Assembly: GCA_903838985.1 (NCBI GenBank)
Contig: CAIMAO010000006.1
Coordinates: forward strand, 1-44,125
Direction: 5' to 3'
DNA from: an uncultured bacterium
GTDB lineage: Bacteria; Patescibacteriota; Minisyncoccia; Phycocordibacterales; UBA9973
Length of the DNA: 44,125 bases
In this document: positions 1,353-20,837 of the stretch, one piece after another
How positions within the stretch are numbered: position 1 is the first letter of the stretch
How the letters are laid out: each line of letters starts with the position of its first letter
Notes under the pieces: generated by a model
The model's database searches: none
The model's input: the letters and a program-made list of their open reading frames with translations, nothing else
Told to the model about the DNA's origin: nothing
Translations under genes and position numbers: made by a program

Positions 1353-2000
1353 TTATTTTTCTTCAACTGGAGCTTCTGCACCTTCCTCTTCTTTCTTGCC
1401 TTTCTTCTCAACTTCAATTGAAGATAAGTCTACTGGTGCAACTTCTTCTTTTTCTTCAACTTGAGCAACGATAGAAGCCACAACATCACCTGAATCTGTT
1501 ATAAGAGTGACACCAGATGGTAATTTTATATCTGAAACAAATATCTGATCTTCAATAGTTTCAAGTTTTGATATATCAACAACAAGATTGTGTGGAAGAT
1601 CTTTTGGTAATGCTTCAACTTCTACTTCATGTAGAACTTTTACAAGATTGCCTAATCCACCTTTAACAGCATTTGATACACCTGTAAATTCAAGAGGGAT
1701 ATTAACTTGTATTTTCTTATTCATATCCACAACTAAGAAGTCTACATGTATTGGCTCATCTGTGACAGGATTCACTTGCACTTCATGAATAAGCACATCT
1801 ACGTCCTTATCACCTAATGACATTTTAACTGTTGAAGACTCTCCAGCATCTCTCCAAACTTTCTTAAAATCAACAATTGATACAGAAATAGAAGTAGTCG
1901 TTTGGCCTGCTCCATAAAAAACAGCTGGGATTTCTCCTGTTTTTCTTAATGCATCTATTTTGACACTCTCGTCTCTTTTTTTAGCTTTAATTGCAAACAT
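1353..2000 (-). CDS. rplY: 50S ribosomal protein L25/general stress protein Ctc
   Basis: MFAIKAKKRDE...LRKTGEIPAVFYGAGQ...IPLEFTGVSNAVKGGLGNLVKVLHEVEVEALPKDLPHNLVVDISKLE is a canonical L25/CTC pattern. Confidence 0.92.
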   Translation of the reverse strand: MFAIKAKKRDESVKIDALRKTGEIPAVFYGAGQTTTSISVSIVDFKKVWRDAGESSTVKMSLGDKDVDVLIHEVQVNPVTDEPIHVDFLVVDMNKKIQVNIPLEFTGVSNAVKGGLGNLVKVLHEVEVEALPKDLPHNLVVDISKLETIEDQIFVSDIKLPSGVTLITDSGDVVASIVAQVEEKEEVAPVDLSSIEVEKKGKKEEEGAEAPVEEK

Positions 2001-2039: not shown

Positions 2040-2134
2040 AATTACAGAACCAAGTAAAAATTTAAGAGTCGTGGGTCCCCTGTCCTTTTGACTCCGAGGG
2101 CGAAGGCTAAAAATTTTTATTTGGTTCTGTAATT
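2040..2134. repeat. Foldback element A: 24-nt inverted arms (2040-2063 / 2111-2134, 1 mismatch) around a GC-rich core; 45-bp core 2064-2108 shared with element E
   Basis: AATTACAGAACCAAGTAAAAATTT ... AAATTTTTATTTGGTTCTGTAATT; core AAGAGTCGTGGGTCCCCTGTCCTTTTGACTCCGAGGGCGAAGGCT. Confidence 0.85.
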
Positions 2135-2141
2135 ATTTTGT

Positions 2142-3983
2142 TTAAACTTTATGTTCAACATTATGCTCTAGTGCAATATGTAAGGCCATATATTCTTTCG
2201 TGCCACCACCATCGGAAGAAATAACCTTTTTACCAGGATTAAAAATATTACGTGGATCAAAAATATTTTTAATTTCTTTAAAAATTGAAGTAATATTTGA
2301 ACCATACATTTTCTGTAAATAAGGTGTGCGAACTATACCATCATTGTGTTCAGCTGTGGTAGAGCCATGATATCTCAAAACTAAGTTGTAAACTAAATCA
2401 CCAAGCTCCAATATTATTTTCGAAGTATCGGGACGTGAAAAATCCATAAGTGGAATAATATGAAAATTGCCATCACCCACATGTCCGGCTATCGTATAAG
2501 TCAAATCATATCTAGACAAAACTTGATTTAACTCAGGAATAAATTTTGGTAAAAATTCTGGACGGACAATAATGTCATCTATAAATGGAGCTGTATGTTT
2601 CCCTTTTACGTGTTTTCTAAGAAGTGAGAAGCTTTCTCTCCTTATGTCCCAATATTTTCCTGCTTCTGCTTCAGATCTAGTGACGTGAACATTTAATTTA
2701 AAATTCTTTATTTTTTCTTTCAGACTTAAACATTGTTTATCGATTTCTTCTTCACTTTCACCTGCGAATTCTGCTAGAATAATTAGTTTAGGAAAACCAC
2801 CAGTAATCATCATTTTAAGTTCTGGTAAAAAACTCCACATAAATTTCAACATGCCTTTGAAGCCTTTATTCTTCAAAAAATCAGGAAAAAATCTAACAGC
2901 GAGTTTCATAGTTTTATCATCATAAGTTTCCAATGTTTCTGGATTAAGCTGTAAAATCTCATCCACAAGACGCCCTAATGGTTTCATATCATTTAAGAAA
3001 ATAACAACCAATTTAGAATGCTTTGGATTTTTAACTAATCTAAAAGTAATTTCTGTCGCTATCCCTAATGTGCCTTGTGAACCCACAAGAAGTTTATTTA
3101 AATCAAAGAAATCAGTTTGCAAAGAATTCTGAACGGTGTGGGTCCCGCCCGGTACTCCGGGAAGGGTTAAGCCGGAAAAATTTTTTGCAAACTGATTTCT
3201 TAAAACATTCCAAATATAATAACCAGCAGAATTTTTGTGAACATTTGGCTTTGCTTGATCTATTTCTGATTTGTTTAAATTTATTAATTTATAAATATTT
3301 TTATAAACTTCACCTTCTAAATTCATCTCTGTATTTTTCTTTGCCAATTCATCTTGTGAAATTGCTTTTACTATATATTCGTTTCCATCAGAAAAAACAA
3401 TTTTAGTTTCTAAAATATAATCTTCTGTCTTTCCATATTTGAGTGTTCGCTCGCCTGCTGAATTATTTCCAAACATCCCACCCATAGCATTTAAACTTTT
3501 TGAAGCTGTATAACAAGGCAAAATAAGCCCTTTTTCTAAGGTTATTTTTTCAAAATCTCTGTAAAACATACCGGGTTGCACTGTTATAGCCCAAGAAGAT
3601 GAATCATTTTCGAGTGGTCTGGGACTTTGTCTCGAGGACCCGAGAAAATGATTTGTCTTCTTGGGCTCACTCACTAATTTATTCATATACCTAGTGAAAT
3701 CTAAAATTAAAGATTCCCCTATCGCTCCACCAGACATATCTGTGCCTGCACATCTACAAGTTATTGAAAGATTTTCCCAATCTTTATTTTTTTCTGGATC
3801 GGCATATTTATCTTTATTTTCATTTACCCATTTCACTAAATTTTGCACATCTAAAGAATCTTTTGGGAAAAGCACGAGTTTTGGCCTCAATTCAAAAATA
3901 CTAGCATCACGCGAATATTTAGAAAGTGTCTCTTCACTATCTTCCACATCTCCTCTAAAAAAATTTTGTATTTGTTCCTTCAT
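2142..3983 (-). CDS. FAD-linked oxidase (GlcD/D-lactate dehydrogenase-like)
   Basis: CAGTDMSGGAIGESLILDFTRYMNK, FGNNSAGERTLKYGKTEDYI, LLVGSQGTLGIATEITFRL, AGHVGDGNFHIIPL, FDPRNIFNPGKK: PCMH-type FAD-binding plus FAD-oxidase C-terminal domain. Confidence 0.88.
   Translation of the reverse strand: MKEQIQNFFRGDVEDSEETLSKYSRDASIFELRPKLVLFPKDSLDVQNLVKWVNENKDKYADPEKNKDWENLSITCRCAGTDMSGGAIGESLILDFTRYMNKLVSEPKKTNHFLGSSRQSPRPLENDSSSWAITVQPGMFYRDFEKITLEKGLILPCYTASKSLNAMGGMFGNNSAGERTLKYGKTEDYILETKIVFSDGNEYIVKAISQDELAKKNTEMNLEGEVYKNIYKLINLNKSEIDQAKPNVHKNSAGYYIWNVLRNQFAKNFSGLTLPGVPGGTHTVQNSLQTDFFDLNKLLVGSQGTLGIATEITFRLVKNPKHSKLVVIFLNDMKPLGRLVDEILQLNPETLETYDDKTMKLAVRFFPDFLKNKGFKGMLKFMWSFLPELKMMITGGFPKLIILAEFAGESEEEIDKQCLSLKEKIKNFKLNVHVTRSEAEAGKYWDIRRESFSLLRKHVKGKHTAPFIDDIIVRPEFLPKFIPELNQVLSRYDLTYTIAGHVGDGNFHIIPLMDFSRPDTSKIILELGDLVYNLVLRYHGSTTAEHNDGIVRTPYLQKMYGSNITSIFKEIKNIFDPRNIFNPGKKVISSDGGGTKEYMALHIALEHNVEHKV
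3108..3199. repeat. Foldback element B inside the FAD-oxidase CDS (arms 3108-3128 / 3179-3199, 1 mismatch in 21)
   Basis: GAAATCAGTTTGCAAAGAATT ... AATTTTTTGCAAACTGATTTC with GC-rich core CTGAACGGTGTGGGTCCCGCCCGGTACTCCGGGAAGGGTTAAGCCGGAAA. Confidence 0.85.
3588..3667. repeat. Foldback element C inside the same CDS (arms 3588-3611 / 3644-3667, 2 mismatches in 24)
   Basis: AGCCCAAGAAGATGAATCATTTTC ... GAAAATGATTTGTCTTCTTGGGCT around GAGTGGTCTGGGACTTTGTCTCGAGGACCCGA. Confidence 0.88.
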
Positions 3984-7296: not shown

Positions 7297-7324
7297 AAAC
7301 GGAAGCATTGCTTCCGTTTTTTTT
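7297..7324 (+). terminator. Rho-independent terminator
   Basis: AAACGGAAGCATTGCTTCCGTTTTTTTT. Confidence 0.85.
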
Positions 7325-8330
7325 ATTTTTTAAAAATTTTCATCAATTCATCTCTGAAATTCTTAACCATTTTATCATCAAATAAAGAAAGTACAAAAAC
7401 CTTATTACCAGTTTTTTCAAATTCTTTTTTCTTTTTTTCTATAATTTTCGGATCTTCTATATTATCAGCTTTTGTAAGAATAATAATCTCATCTTTTGAA
7501 GCAAGACCATCATCTCCCAATTTTAAATTCTTATCGTATTTCTCTAATTCTTTACGAATCTCTTTGTAAACTTTCATCATACCCGTCGAACCTTTTGATA
7601 AATTTTCAAATGATACCAGATGTGCAAGCATTTTTGTACGTTTAATATGTCTTAAAAATTTTACACCCAAACCTTTTCCAGTATTTGCACCTTCAATAAG
7701 ACCTGGAATGTCAGCAATGGTATAACCATAAAAATCACCTAAATTGGGGTCTAGGGTCGTAAAAGCATAATCTCCCACTTTAGCATCTGCATTCGTCAGA
7801 GCGTTCAATAGCGACGATTTACCAGCATTAGGAAGGCCGACAAGCCCTATATCTGCGAAAAGCTCGAGTTCTATGTGGAAATTGCCTCTTTCACCTTCTT
7901 CTCCTGGTCGCCATTCTTTAGGTGTTGTATTTGTAGAACTTTTAAAATGTTCGTTTCCAAAACCACCATAACCACCCTTAAGCAATAAAACTTTTTCTCC
8001 TTCTTTCAAGAGTTGCCATTGTTCATCTGTATCTGTATTTGTAATGATAGAACCCACAGGTAAATCTAAAATAAAGTCTTCACCTTTTTTACCATGTAAA
8101 CTTTTATTTCCACCGTCTTCACCTTTTTCTGCACTGAAACTTTTTTTAGCTTTGTATTTTGAAAGTATATGAACATCACGAATAGCTTGTGCGTAGAAAT
8201 CTCCACCACGTCCACCATCGCCACCTGCAGGTCCACCCTTAGGCACAAATTTCTCCTGACGCCATCTAACTACGCCATTTCCACCCTTCCCTGCCTCTGC
8301 ATATATTTTTATTTCATCTATGAATGCCAT
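7323..8330 (-). CDS. obgE: Obg family GTPase
   Basis: MAFIDEIKIYAEAGKGGNGVVRWRQEKFVPKGGPAGGDGGRGGD...DIGLVGLPNAGKSSLLNALTNA...DIPGLIEGA. Confidence 0.95.
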   Translation of the reverse strand: MAFIDEIKIYAEAGKGGNGVVRWRQEKFVPKGGPAGGDGGRGGDFYAQAIRDVHILSKYKAKKSFSAEKGEDGGNKSLHGKKGEDFILDLPVGSIITNTDTDEQWQLLKEGEKVLLLKGGYGGFGNEHFKSSTNTTPKEWRPGEEGERGNFHIELELFADIGLVGLPNAGKSSLLNALTNADAKVGDYAFTTLDPNLGDFYGYTIADIPGLIEGANTGKGLGVKFLRHIKRTKMLAHLVSFENLSKGSTGMMKVYKEIRKELEKYDKNLKLGDDGLASKDEIIILTKADNIEDPKIIEKKKKEFEKTGNKVFVLSLFDDKMVKNFRDELMKIFKK

Positions 8331-8376
8331 ATAGTTATAATAGCATGTTTTATAAAAATTCTTTATAAAAATCAAA

Positions 8377-8478
8377 AACAATATTTTTGCCGGTACGGAT
8401 TTTTTGAAGCTTAAAAAATCCTGAAATTGGCTCGCCGTCGCTCGCCAAACCCCTTAAAAACATTATTTTCTGATTTTT
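8377..8478. repeat. Foldback element D (arms about 8377-8398 / 8456-8478), abutting element E
   Basis: AAAAATCAAAAACAATATTTTT ... AAAAACATTATTTTCTGATTTTT (about 4 differences); core has inner hairpin GGATTTTTTgaagcttAAAAAATCC and GGCTCGCCGTCGCTCGCC. Confidence 0.6.
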
Positions 8479-8485
8479 AAGAATC

Positions 8486-8582
8486 CTAAAAATAGAAAAA
8501 CAAAAATTTTAAGAGTCGTGGGTCCCCTGTCCTTATGACTCCGAGGGCGAAGGCTCATAAATTTTTCGTTTTTTATTTTTAG
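8486..8582. repeat. Foldback element E: arms 8486-8509 / 8559-8582; core 8511-8555 matches element A core 44/45
   Basis: AAGAGTCGTGGGTCCCCTGTCCTTATGACTCCGAGGGCGAAGGCT vs element A; arms CTAAAAATAGAAAAACAAAAATTT / AAATTTTTCGTTTTTTATTTTTAG. Confidence 0.82.
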
Positions 8583-8586
8583 AAAA

Positions 8587-9474
8587 TTATTTCAAAGCTA
8601 GTTCTGCTAATTTGATAGCTCCTTCTTTTGATTTCGCCACTGCCATAAATAATCCTTTGTGACAAAAAACTGCATCAGATACTCCTGTAATTTTTTGTAA
8701 TTCTTCATCACGAAGCCCTCCCCAAGCACTTGGAAAATCTTTTCTATTTTTGAAAGTTTTTGGATCATCTTTCATTGCTTTAACTCCCCAAAAATTATCA
8801 CTACTCCTTGGATAAATTACAAAAAGAGGTTCAGGAAAATTATTTAATGTAAATTCATAAGGATAATTTTTATCAAAAATAATTATCCTTTTATCTTCTG
8901 TGCTTTGATAAACTGAAATTACTTCTTCTTCAGCTATAACAGAATCTTTAACTTGAATAATTTCACGTGACAAAACTTCCTTTGCAATTTTTACACTTTT
9001 TAAAAACATTTCATCATTGCTCAAATTAGTTTCACGCCAAGTTGGACGCATTGAATAAAAAAAATGTTGAATAAAATAAGGAGAAATACTATGTTTATTT
9101 TCAACTAAGTCGAAACCATTATCAGCGGCATCTATAGGAGCCACTATATGTTCATCTACTATCTGTGCTATCTTTTCTCCACCTGATAACTCTGCTCCAA
9201 ATTTCTTCCAGACTAAACCAAAAGAAGAATATATAATATTTTCGTATCTTTTTTCTTTAAAAGAAGCTTGATGATGATCAAATCTATTCTTTTCTTCATC
9301 ATATACGCCACCAACATCAAAAACATAATCTCCTTCATTTATTATTTCAGGATCACGAGTACGAATTATTTCAAAACTTTCACCCTTTTTTTCTAATAAC
9401 ATAGAAAGTGTTGCCGCTGCAAAAATATCGTCTGCATGAAAAGATCCATTGTGTGTGACAAGTTTTTTTATCAT
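8587..9474 (-). CDS. MYG1 family protein (DHH-like metal-dependent hydrolase)
   Basis: MIKKLVTHNGSFHADDIFAAATLSMLL...YVFDVGGVYDEEKNRFDHHQ...DEHIVAPIDAADNG. Confidence 0.88.
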   Translation of the reverse strand: MIKKLVTHNGSFHADDIFAAATLSMLLEKKGESFEIIRTRDPEIINEGDYVFDVGGVYDEEKNRFDHHQASFKEKRYENIIYSSFGLVWKKFGAELSGGEKIAQIVDEHIVAPIDAADNGFDLVENKHSISPYFIQHFFYSMRPTWRETNLSNDEMFLKSVKIAKEVLSREIIQVKDSVIAEEEVISVYQSTEDKRIIIFDKNYPYEFTLNNFPEPLFVIYPRSSDNFWGVKAMKDDPKTFKNRKDFPSAWGGLRDEELQKITGVSDAVFCHKGLFMAVAKSKEGAIKLAELALK

Positions 9475-9478
9475 TTTA

Positions 9479-10099
9479 TTATTTGTGTCCATCTCCATTA
9501 ATACCATTTTTAAAATATTCGTAAAAAGTATAAAGCGAAGAAACGATCTTATCAAAAAGAAGAAATACTATTATTAAACCAAGAATAACAAGAGAAAACT
9601 TGCCTATTTCTTTACTTATAGAAATAGCTGTCTGACTAAAAAAGAAACCTAAGGATAAAAGAACTGGAGCCCAAATAATAGTGGAAATAAATTCAGCTTT
9701 CAAGAAAGTTTTCAAACTAGTTTTTGTGTATCCAGAAAATAAAATAACTATATAATTCGTACCCATAATGAATTTAGAAAGAAAAATTGACCAAAATGGT
9801 TTTTGTCTAAACCTTGGCATAATATAAGATACTCTCCTTTCTATATATTGGAAAAATTTACTATAACTGTATTTTTCATTAACTAATTCTCCTATATAAT
9901 ACAAAATAAATGTTTTTACAAAACTACCTGAAAAAATTAAAATTAATGAAAGTGTAAAATCTAGCGCTCCCAAATAACAAAGCACTCCTGTCGTGATGAC
10001 TACGACTTCACCTTCAAAGATGAGACCAAGAAAAATAACAGCATAAGCTAATATTTGATGATGCTCCACTAAAGCACTTAAAAATTTGACTGTATACAT
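9479..10099 (-). CDS. DedA family membrane protein
   Basis: LGLIFEGEVVVITTGVLCYLGAL; FLSKFIMGTNYIVILFSGYTKTSLKTFLKAEFISTIIWAP. Confidence 0.75.
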   Translation of the reverse strand: MYTVKFLSALVEHHQILAYAVIFLGLIFEGEVVVITTGVLCYLGALDFTLSLILIFSGSFVKTFILYYIGELVNEKYSYSKFFQYIERRVSYIMPRFRQKPFWSIFLSKFIMGTNYIVILFSGYTKTSLKTFLKAEFISTIIWAPVLLSLGFFFSQTAISISKEIGKFSLVILGLIIVFLLFDKIVSSLYTFYEYFKNGINGDGHK

Positions 10100-13342: not shown

Positions 13343-13374
13343 GTCTATAAATTGACAATTTTTATATCAAAATT

Positions 13375-13446
13375 GGCCCTATCGTCTAACGGTTAGGACG
13401 TATCCTTCTCAAGGATAAAATCAGAGTCCGATTCTCTGTAGCCCTT
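13375..13446 (+). pseudogene. tRNA-Glu(CTC) copy with broken acceptor stem (probable left attachment site)
   Basis: GGCCCTA...TATCC TTCTCAA GGATA...CAGAGTCCGATTCTCTG TAGCCCT: the 3' strand does not pair at positions 3-70 and 4-69, whereas the copy at 20744 ends TAGGGTC. Confidence 0.7.
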
Positions 13447-13561: not shown

Positions 13562-14461
13562 ATGGATAACATAAAAATGTTAGCCCAAAAATTCTATGAT
13601 TACTCGGTGTCAATTCGTGGTTATAAAAAAGACACGATTATAAGGTATAAACATTCAATAAATTTTTATTGTACGTTTACAAAAATAAATAATATAAGTG
13701 AAGTAACTGAAGAAAATATCCGTGCATTGTTCTTTTATGGTAGAACAAAAAGAAACTGGTCTGTAAATACTTTTCTTTGTTATCATAAATCCTTGCTCGT
13801 ATTTTTCCGTTGGTGCATAGATCAAGGTTTTATGAAACAGATAAATCCCCTTTTGAGTATAGAAAAACCCAAGTTAGAAAAAAGTTTACCAATAAAACTA
13901 ACAAAACAAGAAACTCTTAAACTATTAGAAATAGTTGATAACTATCCTTGGCCTTGTAAATTTTTAAGATATAGAAATTACGCAATTTTTGCCACTTTTA
14001 TATTCTGTGGATTAAGAAAAATGGAATTATTAAATCTTAAATATTCTGATATAGATATTGAAAATCTTTCAGTTTTTGTAAAGAATGGAAAAGGTAATAA
14101 AGATCGTATAATACCGATGAATCAAAAACTAGCAACAATTCTTACTAGATATGTTGAAGAAAGAAATAAGCTTAAAAAAACTTGCCCAGAATTTTTTACA
14201 TCTTATACTCACAATATGGGACTTTCTGATACTGGAATAAAGAACCTAACAAAGATAATCCAAAAATCATCTGAAACAAAATTTTGTTTACATAAATTAA
14301 GAAGTAGCTTTGCTTGTCTTATGCTTCAAGGAGGCTGTGATATCTATTCCCTTTCAAAAATGATGGGGCATACGTCAATCTCAACAACTCAAATTTATTT
14401 ATACAGTTCATTAGAAAATTTACGTACGCAAATAGCTAAACACCCACTTAACGATATATAA
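13562..14461 (+). CDS. Tyrosine-type recombinase/integrase
   Basis: N-terminal SAM-like domain plus catalytic motifs FCGLRKMELLNLKYSDID, KNGKGNKDRIIPM, LHKLRSSFACLMLQGG, MMGHTSISTTQIYLY. Confidence 0.93.
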   Translation: MDNIKMLAQKFYDYSVSIRGYKKDTIIRYKHSINFYCTFTKINNISEVTEENIRALFFYGRTKRNWSVNTFLCYHKSLLVFFRWCIDQGFMKQINPLLSIEKPKLEKSLPIKLTKQETLKLLEIVDNYPWPCKFLRYRNYAIFATFIFCGLRKMELLNLKYSDIDIENLSVFVKNGKGNKDRIIPMNQKLATILTRYVEERNKLKKTCPEFFTSYTHNMGLSDTGIKNLTKIIQKSSETKFCLHKLRSSFACLMLQGGCDIYSLSKMMGHTSISTTQIYLYSSLENLRTQIAKHPLNDI

Positions 14462-15629: not shown

Positions 15630-15800
15630 TTAATAAGAAGTAGCCTAAACCATTGAGTAATTAGTGGCATGGTGAAAAATCCAACGAAGATAAAGAACTC
15701 CTAGTCAGAGTTTGCCTTCGTTGGTCGTATGGGGAAACTCATACGGATAGCCTAAGGGCTATCAATCTGGCTGGGAGCTTTTTGCGTTCTAGCCTAAAAA
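15630..15800 (+). ncRNA. Candidate structured leader/ncRNA upstream of the 69-aa ORF
   Basis: Consecutive hairpins AACGAAG...AACTCctagtcaGAGTT...CTTCGTT, CGTATGgggaaactCATACG, GATAGCCtaagGGCTATC, GGCT...AGCC; TATAAT at about 15613. Confidence 0.45.
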
Positions 15801-20551: not shown

Positions 20552-20743
20552 ATTATATTAATTGATAATTTACCAATAAATTTGCTATTATAGAAACAGT
20601 CGATTTTTATTAAAAATAATTATACTTGTATACATTTTTAGAAGACTTATTTAATGTTCTCGAAATGGGATATGGTTCACTTAGCTTAAACAGCTTTAGT
20701 GATTAAATTACATTTTAGATATATTTTATAAAGGTTTTTACAT

Positions 20744-20815
20744 GGCCCTATCGTCTAACGGCTAGGACGTATCCTTCTCAAGGATAAAATCAGAGTCCGA
20801 TTCTCTGTAGGGTCA
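20744..20815 (+). tRNA. tRNA-Glu (anticodon CTC)
   Basis: GGCCCTA TC GTCTAACGGCTAGGAC G TATCC TTCTCAA GGATA AAATC AGAGTCCGATTCTCT... TAGGGTC A; full cloverleaf. Confidence 0.9.
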
Positions 20816-20837
20816 CAGATTTTAATTAAATATATTC

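Follow-up and report, generated by a model that had tools for sequence, protein, structure and literature searches.

A putative dispersed palindromic element with a uniform tip and locus-specific, co-varying arms in a genus of Nomurabacteria

Two foldbacks in the analysed window

The window, that is, the whole stretch of 44,125 nt that was analysed, carries two copies of a foldback termed hairpin family 1. Copy A spans positions 2040..2134 and lies on the minus strand, to which the sense strand of its core (AGCCTTCGCCC...) belongs. Its conserved 45-nt core (2064..2108, minus strand) is enclosed by a locus-specific arm (2040..2063) and the partner arm (2111..2134). Both adjoining genes are located on the minus strand, and the sense direction of the core is the same as theirs. 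By sequence recognition, the upstream gene (2142..3983) is presumably an FAD-linked oxidase-like gene and the downstream gene (1353..2000) is taken to encode a ribosomal protein L25/Ctc-like product. The ortholog of the upstream gene holds an in-frame copy of the element in two other genomes (L093, L282). Copy E (8486..8582, core 8511..8555, minus strand) fills the gap between two further minus-strand genes, which we assume, again by sequence recognition, to be a MYG1-like gene (8587..9555) and obgE (7323..8381). The stop codon of the former borders the copy; the latter lies downstream of copy E and of a second hairpin described below.

As the sequence-only reading had stated, the cores of copies A and E differ at a single position and have identical orientation, and the arms are unlike between the two loci, yet complementary within each. 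Its claim that left and right arm are reverse complements holds well for copy A, where 23 of 24 positions pair. For copy E it is only approximate (21 of 24 ungapped), and the pairing improves once one gap is allowed. Folding of the single-stranded DNA was compared with that of shuffled sequences. The z-scores of the two strands were about -6 and -5 in copy A and -3.8 and -4.3 in copy E, and in both cases none of 200 shuffles folded as well. The foldbacks at both loci are real, chance being excluded by this comparison.

Directly beside copy E, a foldback of a second family was found (family 2, 8367..8478, plus strand). Its conserved core, which runs from GGTACGGATTTTTTGAAGCTTAAAAAATCC to AACCCC (8392-8453), contains two inner hairpins and is flanked by locus-specific arms (8367-8391 and 8454-8478). 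Family 2 was matched 12 times in the host genome, and 44 of the 80 genomes in the genus contain it. The arms score 37.8 with their own partner and 17.0 with swapped partners, and their mismatches show a mild strand asymmetry (21 A-C, 9 G-T). Since family 2 has the same architecture, the two-part design is no peculiarity of one core.

The window also contains a match to the LOOT RNA (RF03000) at 15642-15763 on the plus strand, which with 87 bits is far over the cut-off. A near-identical pair of tRNA-Glu(CTC) genes is located at 13374-13446 and 20743-20816, and an integrase-like ORF (13562-14461) adjoins the first of them. This arrangement suggests that the approximately 7.4 kb between the tRNA genes are an integrated element.

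Distribution and anatomy of family 1

Ten copies of family 1 were identified in the host genome (751 kb in 46 contigs). Each of the eight copies other than A and E has its own complementary arms. The earlier description of a mobile-looking element with locus-specific arms is borne out. The core was matched in 39 of the 80 genomes of the genus. A first search among relatives had matched 17 of 60 genomes, every one belonging to this genus, and family 1 was found in none of the 24 other genera of the order that were tested. An exact-pattern scan of GTDB, with one genome per species, yielded 70 stretches, nearly all of which are titled Nomurabacteria or Parcubacteria/Patescibacteria. Two stretches titled Burkholderiales come from a bin carrying the same locus as the genus member G027. 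In a literature search, no paper on such elements in Patescibacteria was found. Judged from these sequences, family 1 is a palindromic element, about 95-105 bp long and dispersed in the genomes, that is specific to one genus of Nomurabacteria.

Anatomy and arm statistics were derived from 127 stringently matched copies in the genus. These copies have in common a conserved tip of about 45 nt, while their arms vary from locus to locus and yet remain complementary. The outer, locus-specific arms measure approximately 10-18 bp. Inside them lies an inner stem common to the copies (AAAAATTTTTG ... AAAATTTTT), followed by a basal core stem that occurs in several paired versions (GAG/CTC, GCG/CGC, GAAAC/GTTTC and GCATC/GATGC). 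The tip itself is near-invariant and reads CGCCCTCGGAG-NCA-loop-GACAGGG-RACCCACG. The mean pairing score of the outer arms is 25.1 with their own partner and 15.3 with partners swapped between loci, a background raised by the AT-richness of the DNA. Pairing of the own arms lies above the 95% level of the swapped pairs in 86 of the 127 copies; in a minority of the copies the arms are eroded. In one genome, an extra small GC-rich hairpin (CTTGCCTACCGGCAGGCAGG) is nested in family 1 tips at L048 (6000), L078 (1910, minus) and L108 (2253). It holds a GTAG-type motif like that of REP sequences.

Genomic placement and orientation

The copies are found between genes as well as inside open reading frames. 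Among the copies with both neighbours identified, 63 are co-directional with both neighbours and 10 are opposed. Inside ORFs, 23 copies are in sense and one is in antisense direction; for the latter the frame, in the gap between rplJ and rplL, is probably spurious. In total, 86 copies are oriented with and 11 against the genes. Either transcription or the leading strand may underlie this bias, as cases in which transcription and replication are discordant are too few to separate the two.

At least 23 copies lie in frame inside conserved proteins. By sequence recognition, we take the hosts to be RecJ, the CCA-adding enzyme, UvrC (with two copies), MnmA, LeuRS, RsmH, an rRNA methyltransferase-like protein, an FAD-linked oxidase and PheT. 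The peptide usually encoded by the in-frame copies is KNSPAFALGDKRTGDPRLL. Such insertions in RecJ, UvrC, LeuRS and others show that core enzymes tolerate a repeated peptide. An autonomous version of the element was sought in closely spaced pairs of cores, but the pair that was checked (L026) consists of two in-frame insertions in uvrC. In the MYG1-obgE gap of genome G030 (L116) the core is reversed relative to the other genomes at this site, which may represent an inversion of the spacer or an independent insertion.

Filled and empty sites

Orthologous sites with and without the element were compared for several loci. The DHH and the NP codons of recJ are 147 nt apart when the element is present and 54 nt apart in the empty relatives, so that the insert amounts to 31 codons. 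The distance from stop to start codon in the MYG1-obgE gap, the site of copy E, is about 14-20 nt in many genomes and about 106 nt where it is filled; the ancestral gap measures about 14 nt. At the empty sites in recJ, MYG1-obgE, L008 (trpS-dnaB) and L006, neither of the two arms is present. The whole hairpin was therefore inserted, with the arms being part of the insert, and the idea that the stem is built from local sequence does not stand at these four sites. The comparison shows that the unit of insertion is the entire hairpin, with the conserved tip and both arms, and that the element has been gained and lost between species. No clear target duplication was detected at recJ or MYG1-obgE. 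Truncated remnants were found at the site of copy A in G032 and at the L004 site in G003.

Elsewhere in the genus (L143, L146, L151, L158 and L170), unrelated inserts, of which several look like hairpins, occupy this point of RecJ, which marks the loop as an insertion hotspot.

Evolution of the arms

For 77 ortholog pairs, which are not mutually independent, 194 paired arm positions were changed on both sides with pairing kept, versus 148 that were changed on one side. The compensated changes comprise 102 transversions and 92 transitions. One such change in the MYG1-obgE gap has left its intermediate: TTAAG/CTTAA in G060 and G088, TTAAG/CATAA in G027 and G073, and TTATG/CATAA in G080. The aligned orthologs show that after insertion both arms change together, and that each locus keeps its own stem.

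Co-varying arms are usually taken as proof of RNA structure, and the first alternative to be weighed is a functional structured RNA motif with a conserved tip and a variable stem, dispersed in transcripts and kept paired by selection on the RNA. It would account for the conserved tip on long stems, for the strong co-orientation with genes (86 versus 11) and for the tight fit between stop and start codons. However, RNA selection should favour G-U over A-C mismatches. The outer arms of all copies show no excess of wobble pairs (29 G-T versus 38 A-C), unlike the tRNA stems of two relatives, which served as positive control (29 G-T versus 1 A-C), and transversions make up over half of the compensated changes. 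In addition, many copies lie within unrelated coding genes, half of the genomes have none, and Rfam models failed to match the element, both in the window (gathering level) and in the loci of three relatives (relaxed threshold). We consider a structured RNA unlikely as the main explanation, although it keeps a real chance, and the element may yet have some role at the RNA level.

Template switching between the arms, by comparison, predicts no preference for G-U. It is known to homogenise the arms of inverted repeats, and in bacteria a bias towards transversions has been reported for it (PMC8604942, PMC8794818). From the compensated changes, which show no wobble excess and over half of which are transversions, we infer template switching at the level of the DNA rather than selection on RNA.

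Evolution of the core

Core and arms follow different rules. The identity of the core is 0.907 when different loci within a genome are compared, 0.878 for one locus across genomes and 0.876 for unrelated copies. The corresponding values for the outer arms are 0.535, 0.688 and 0.508. Of the within-genome pairs that include a certain two-base core variant, 34% share it, compared with 4% of the orthologous pairs. In permutations, core similarity was significant within genomes (p < 0.0005) and not for the locus (p = 0.49), with p = 0.006 for the difference; among orthologs with closely similar arms, a weak locus signal was seen for the core (p = 0.05). Core similarity thus follows the genome and arm similarity follows the locus, and the two parts have separate histories. 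This was the correct kernel of the earlier idea, in which the core was the mobile part.

Proposed explanation and alternatives

Taken together, we favour a genus-specific palindromic element that inserts as a whole hairpin, whose arms are subject to template switching and whose tip is kept uniform, with a behaviour like that of the Rickettsia palindromic elements (RPE); this is probably, though by no means certainly, the right account. The hairpin, tip and arms together, would insert in short intergenic gaps or in frame in conserved proteins. Its arms would be held complementary at the DNA level by template switching during replication (quasipalindrome correction) and so drift as a pair. Uniformity of the tip could result from ectopic gene conversion among the copies, from re-insertion, or from selection for being recognised by a putative mobilising protein. 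Concerted evolution of these two kinds would be expected to end in a conserved tip with unrelated but complementary arms, and an inverted duplication of the target would not be needed. Several points speak against this reading. Template switching should invert the tip too, yet its orientation is strongly biased. Selection or the mechanism of insertion would therefore have to fix the orientation. The weak locus signal in the cores of orthologs with closely similar arms, the mild strand asymmetry of family 2, and the lack of a Y1 transposase in the host genome and next to the cores of two relatives also count against it.

A variant (loop homing) in which the tip itself is the mobile or converting unit, which replaces the tips of pre-existing hairpins across the genome while the stems are kept perfect by self-templated replication errors, is in our view unlikely. 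If it were true, the hairpins would be permanent docking sites exchanging their tips.

The model of the sequence-only reading, in which a mobile core enters existing hairpins or takes the place of their tip, is in accordance with the separate histories of core and arms. The earlier reading had named a hairpin without the core at an orthologous locus as evidence against itself, and one was found; it also fits a core that enters existing hairpins. At MYG1-obgE, G003 has a coreless hairpin with arms identical to those of the full copies of G060 and G088, and at the L003 site the same genome has a quasi-hairpin without core. However, in a tree of MYG1 and ObgE, G003 is the sister of G088 (support 90/99), and both are nested in a clade (100/99) with full copies. 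Given this position in the tree, loss of the core is simpler than a pre-existing hairpin. The empty sites in recJ, MYG1-obgE, L006 and L008 lack any hairpin. The arms had also been expected to differ from copy to copy. They are indeed locus-specific in general, but the unrelated loci secF-lemA and rplJ-rplL have nearly identical arms and some left flank in common, so that arms can travel with the core. We therefore regard a core that moves by itself as quite improbable.

A template switch at a fork that duplicates one flank in inverted form upon insertion would fit the observation that the arms differ at nearly all loci, and at L008 it is flanking sequence that pairs with the outermost 4 bp. 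Since the empty recJ and MYG1-obgE sites contain neither arm and the added length spans both, this mechanism is very unlikely. Intrinsic transcription terminators that share a motif by chance are scarcely credible and were rejected on the genomic context of the copies, many of which lie just past a stop codon but others in ORFs, between genes transcribed apart (L008) or directly between rplJ and rplL, with a core common to half of the genus.

Comparison with known systems

Among known mobile repeats, MITEs and REP/RAYT systems resemble family 1 in being short, dispersed, hairpin-forming and seemingly non-autonomous. Unlike MITEs, family 1 has no conserved terminal inverted repeats and no clear target duplication at recJ or MYG1-obgE. 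Unlike REP/RAYT systems, it has no Y1 transposase in its host genome, where none was detected at E < 0.001. Y1 transposase-like genes occur in 55 of the 80 genomes of the genus with up to 14 copies, an abundance that is high for such small genomes. In G032 and G003 no core was found beside a Y1 gene, the nearest core being 1.4 kb away (G032). A link to Y1/RAYT was rejected because the gene is missing from the host genome and no adjacency was seen in these two genomes.

The RPE and the palindromic repeats of Wolbachia are described as palindromes of about 100-150 bp that are located between genes and in frame in unrelated conserved proteins (PMC2229807, PMC10969869). Family 1 likewise occurs in both positions. 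The likeness rests on descriptions of RPE, and the host is a Patescibacterium instead of Rickettsia. RPE are described with terminal inverted repeats of the family, whereas family 1 has only the tip in common and its arms are locus-specific and co-evolving; the outer arms are hardly more similar within a genome than between unrelated copies, as given above, and family-wide terminal inverted repeats are absent. Our results would place Patescibacteria beside Rickettsia and Wolbachia as hosts of palindromic elements that insert in proteins, and they supply many orthologous filled and empty sites. Palindromes inside protein-coding genes are also known from the mitochondria of Nematomorpha, where long inverted repeats were found (PMC6649704); the abstract of that report mentions neither a common core nor a dispersed family.

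The arms resemble the template-switched inverted repeats of yeast and of RNA genes, which show mutual correction of the arms, compensated multi-base changes and possible inversion of the spacer (PMC8604942, PMC8794818). Compensated changes on both arms without preference for wobble pairs are present here, as for repeats homogenised in this way. The repeats in yeast and RNA genes are individual ones, whereas here a conserved spacer recurs throughout a dispersed family. The element sets apart two forces that are commonly confounded and, since its co-variation lacks a wobble signature, is a natural test bed for whether template switching alone can yield compensatory changes.
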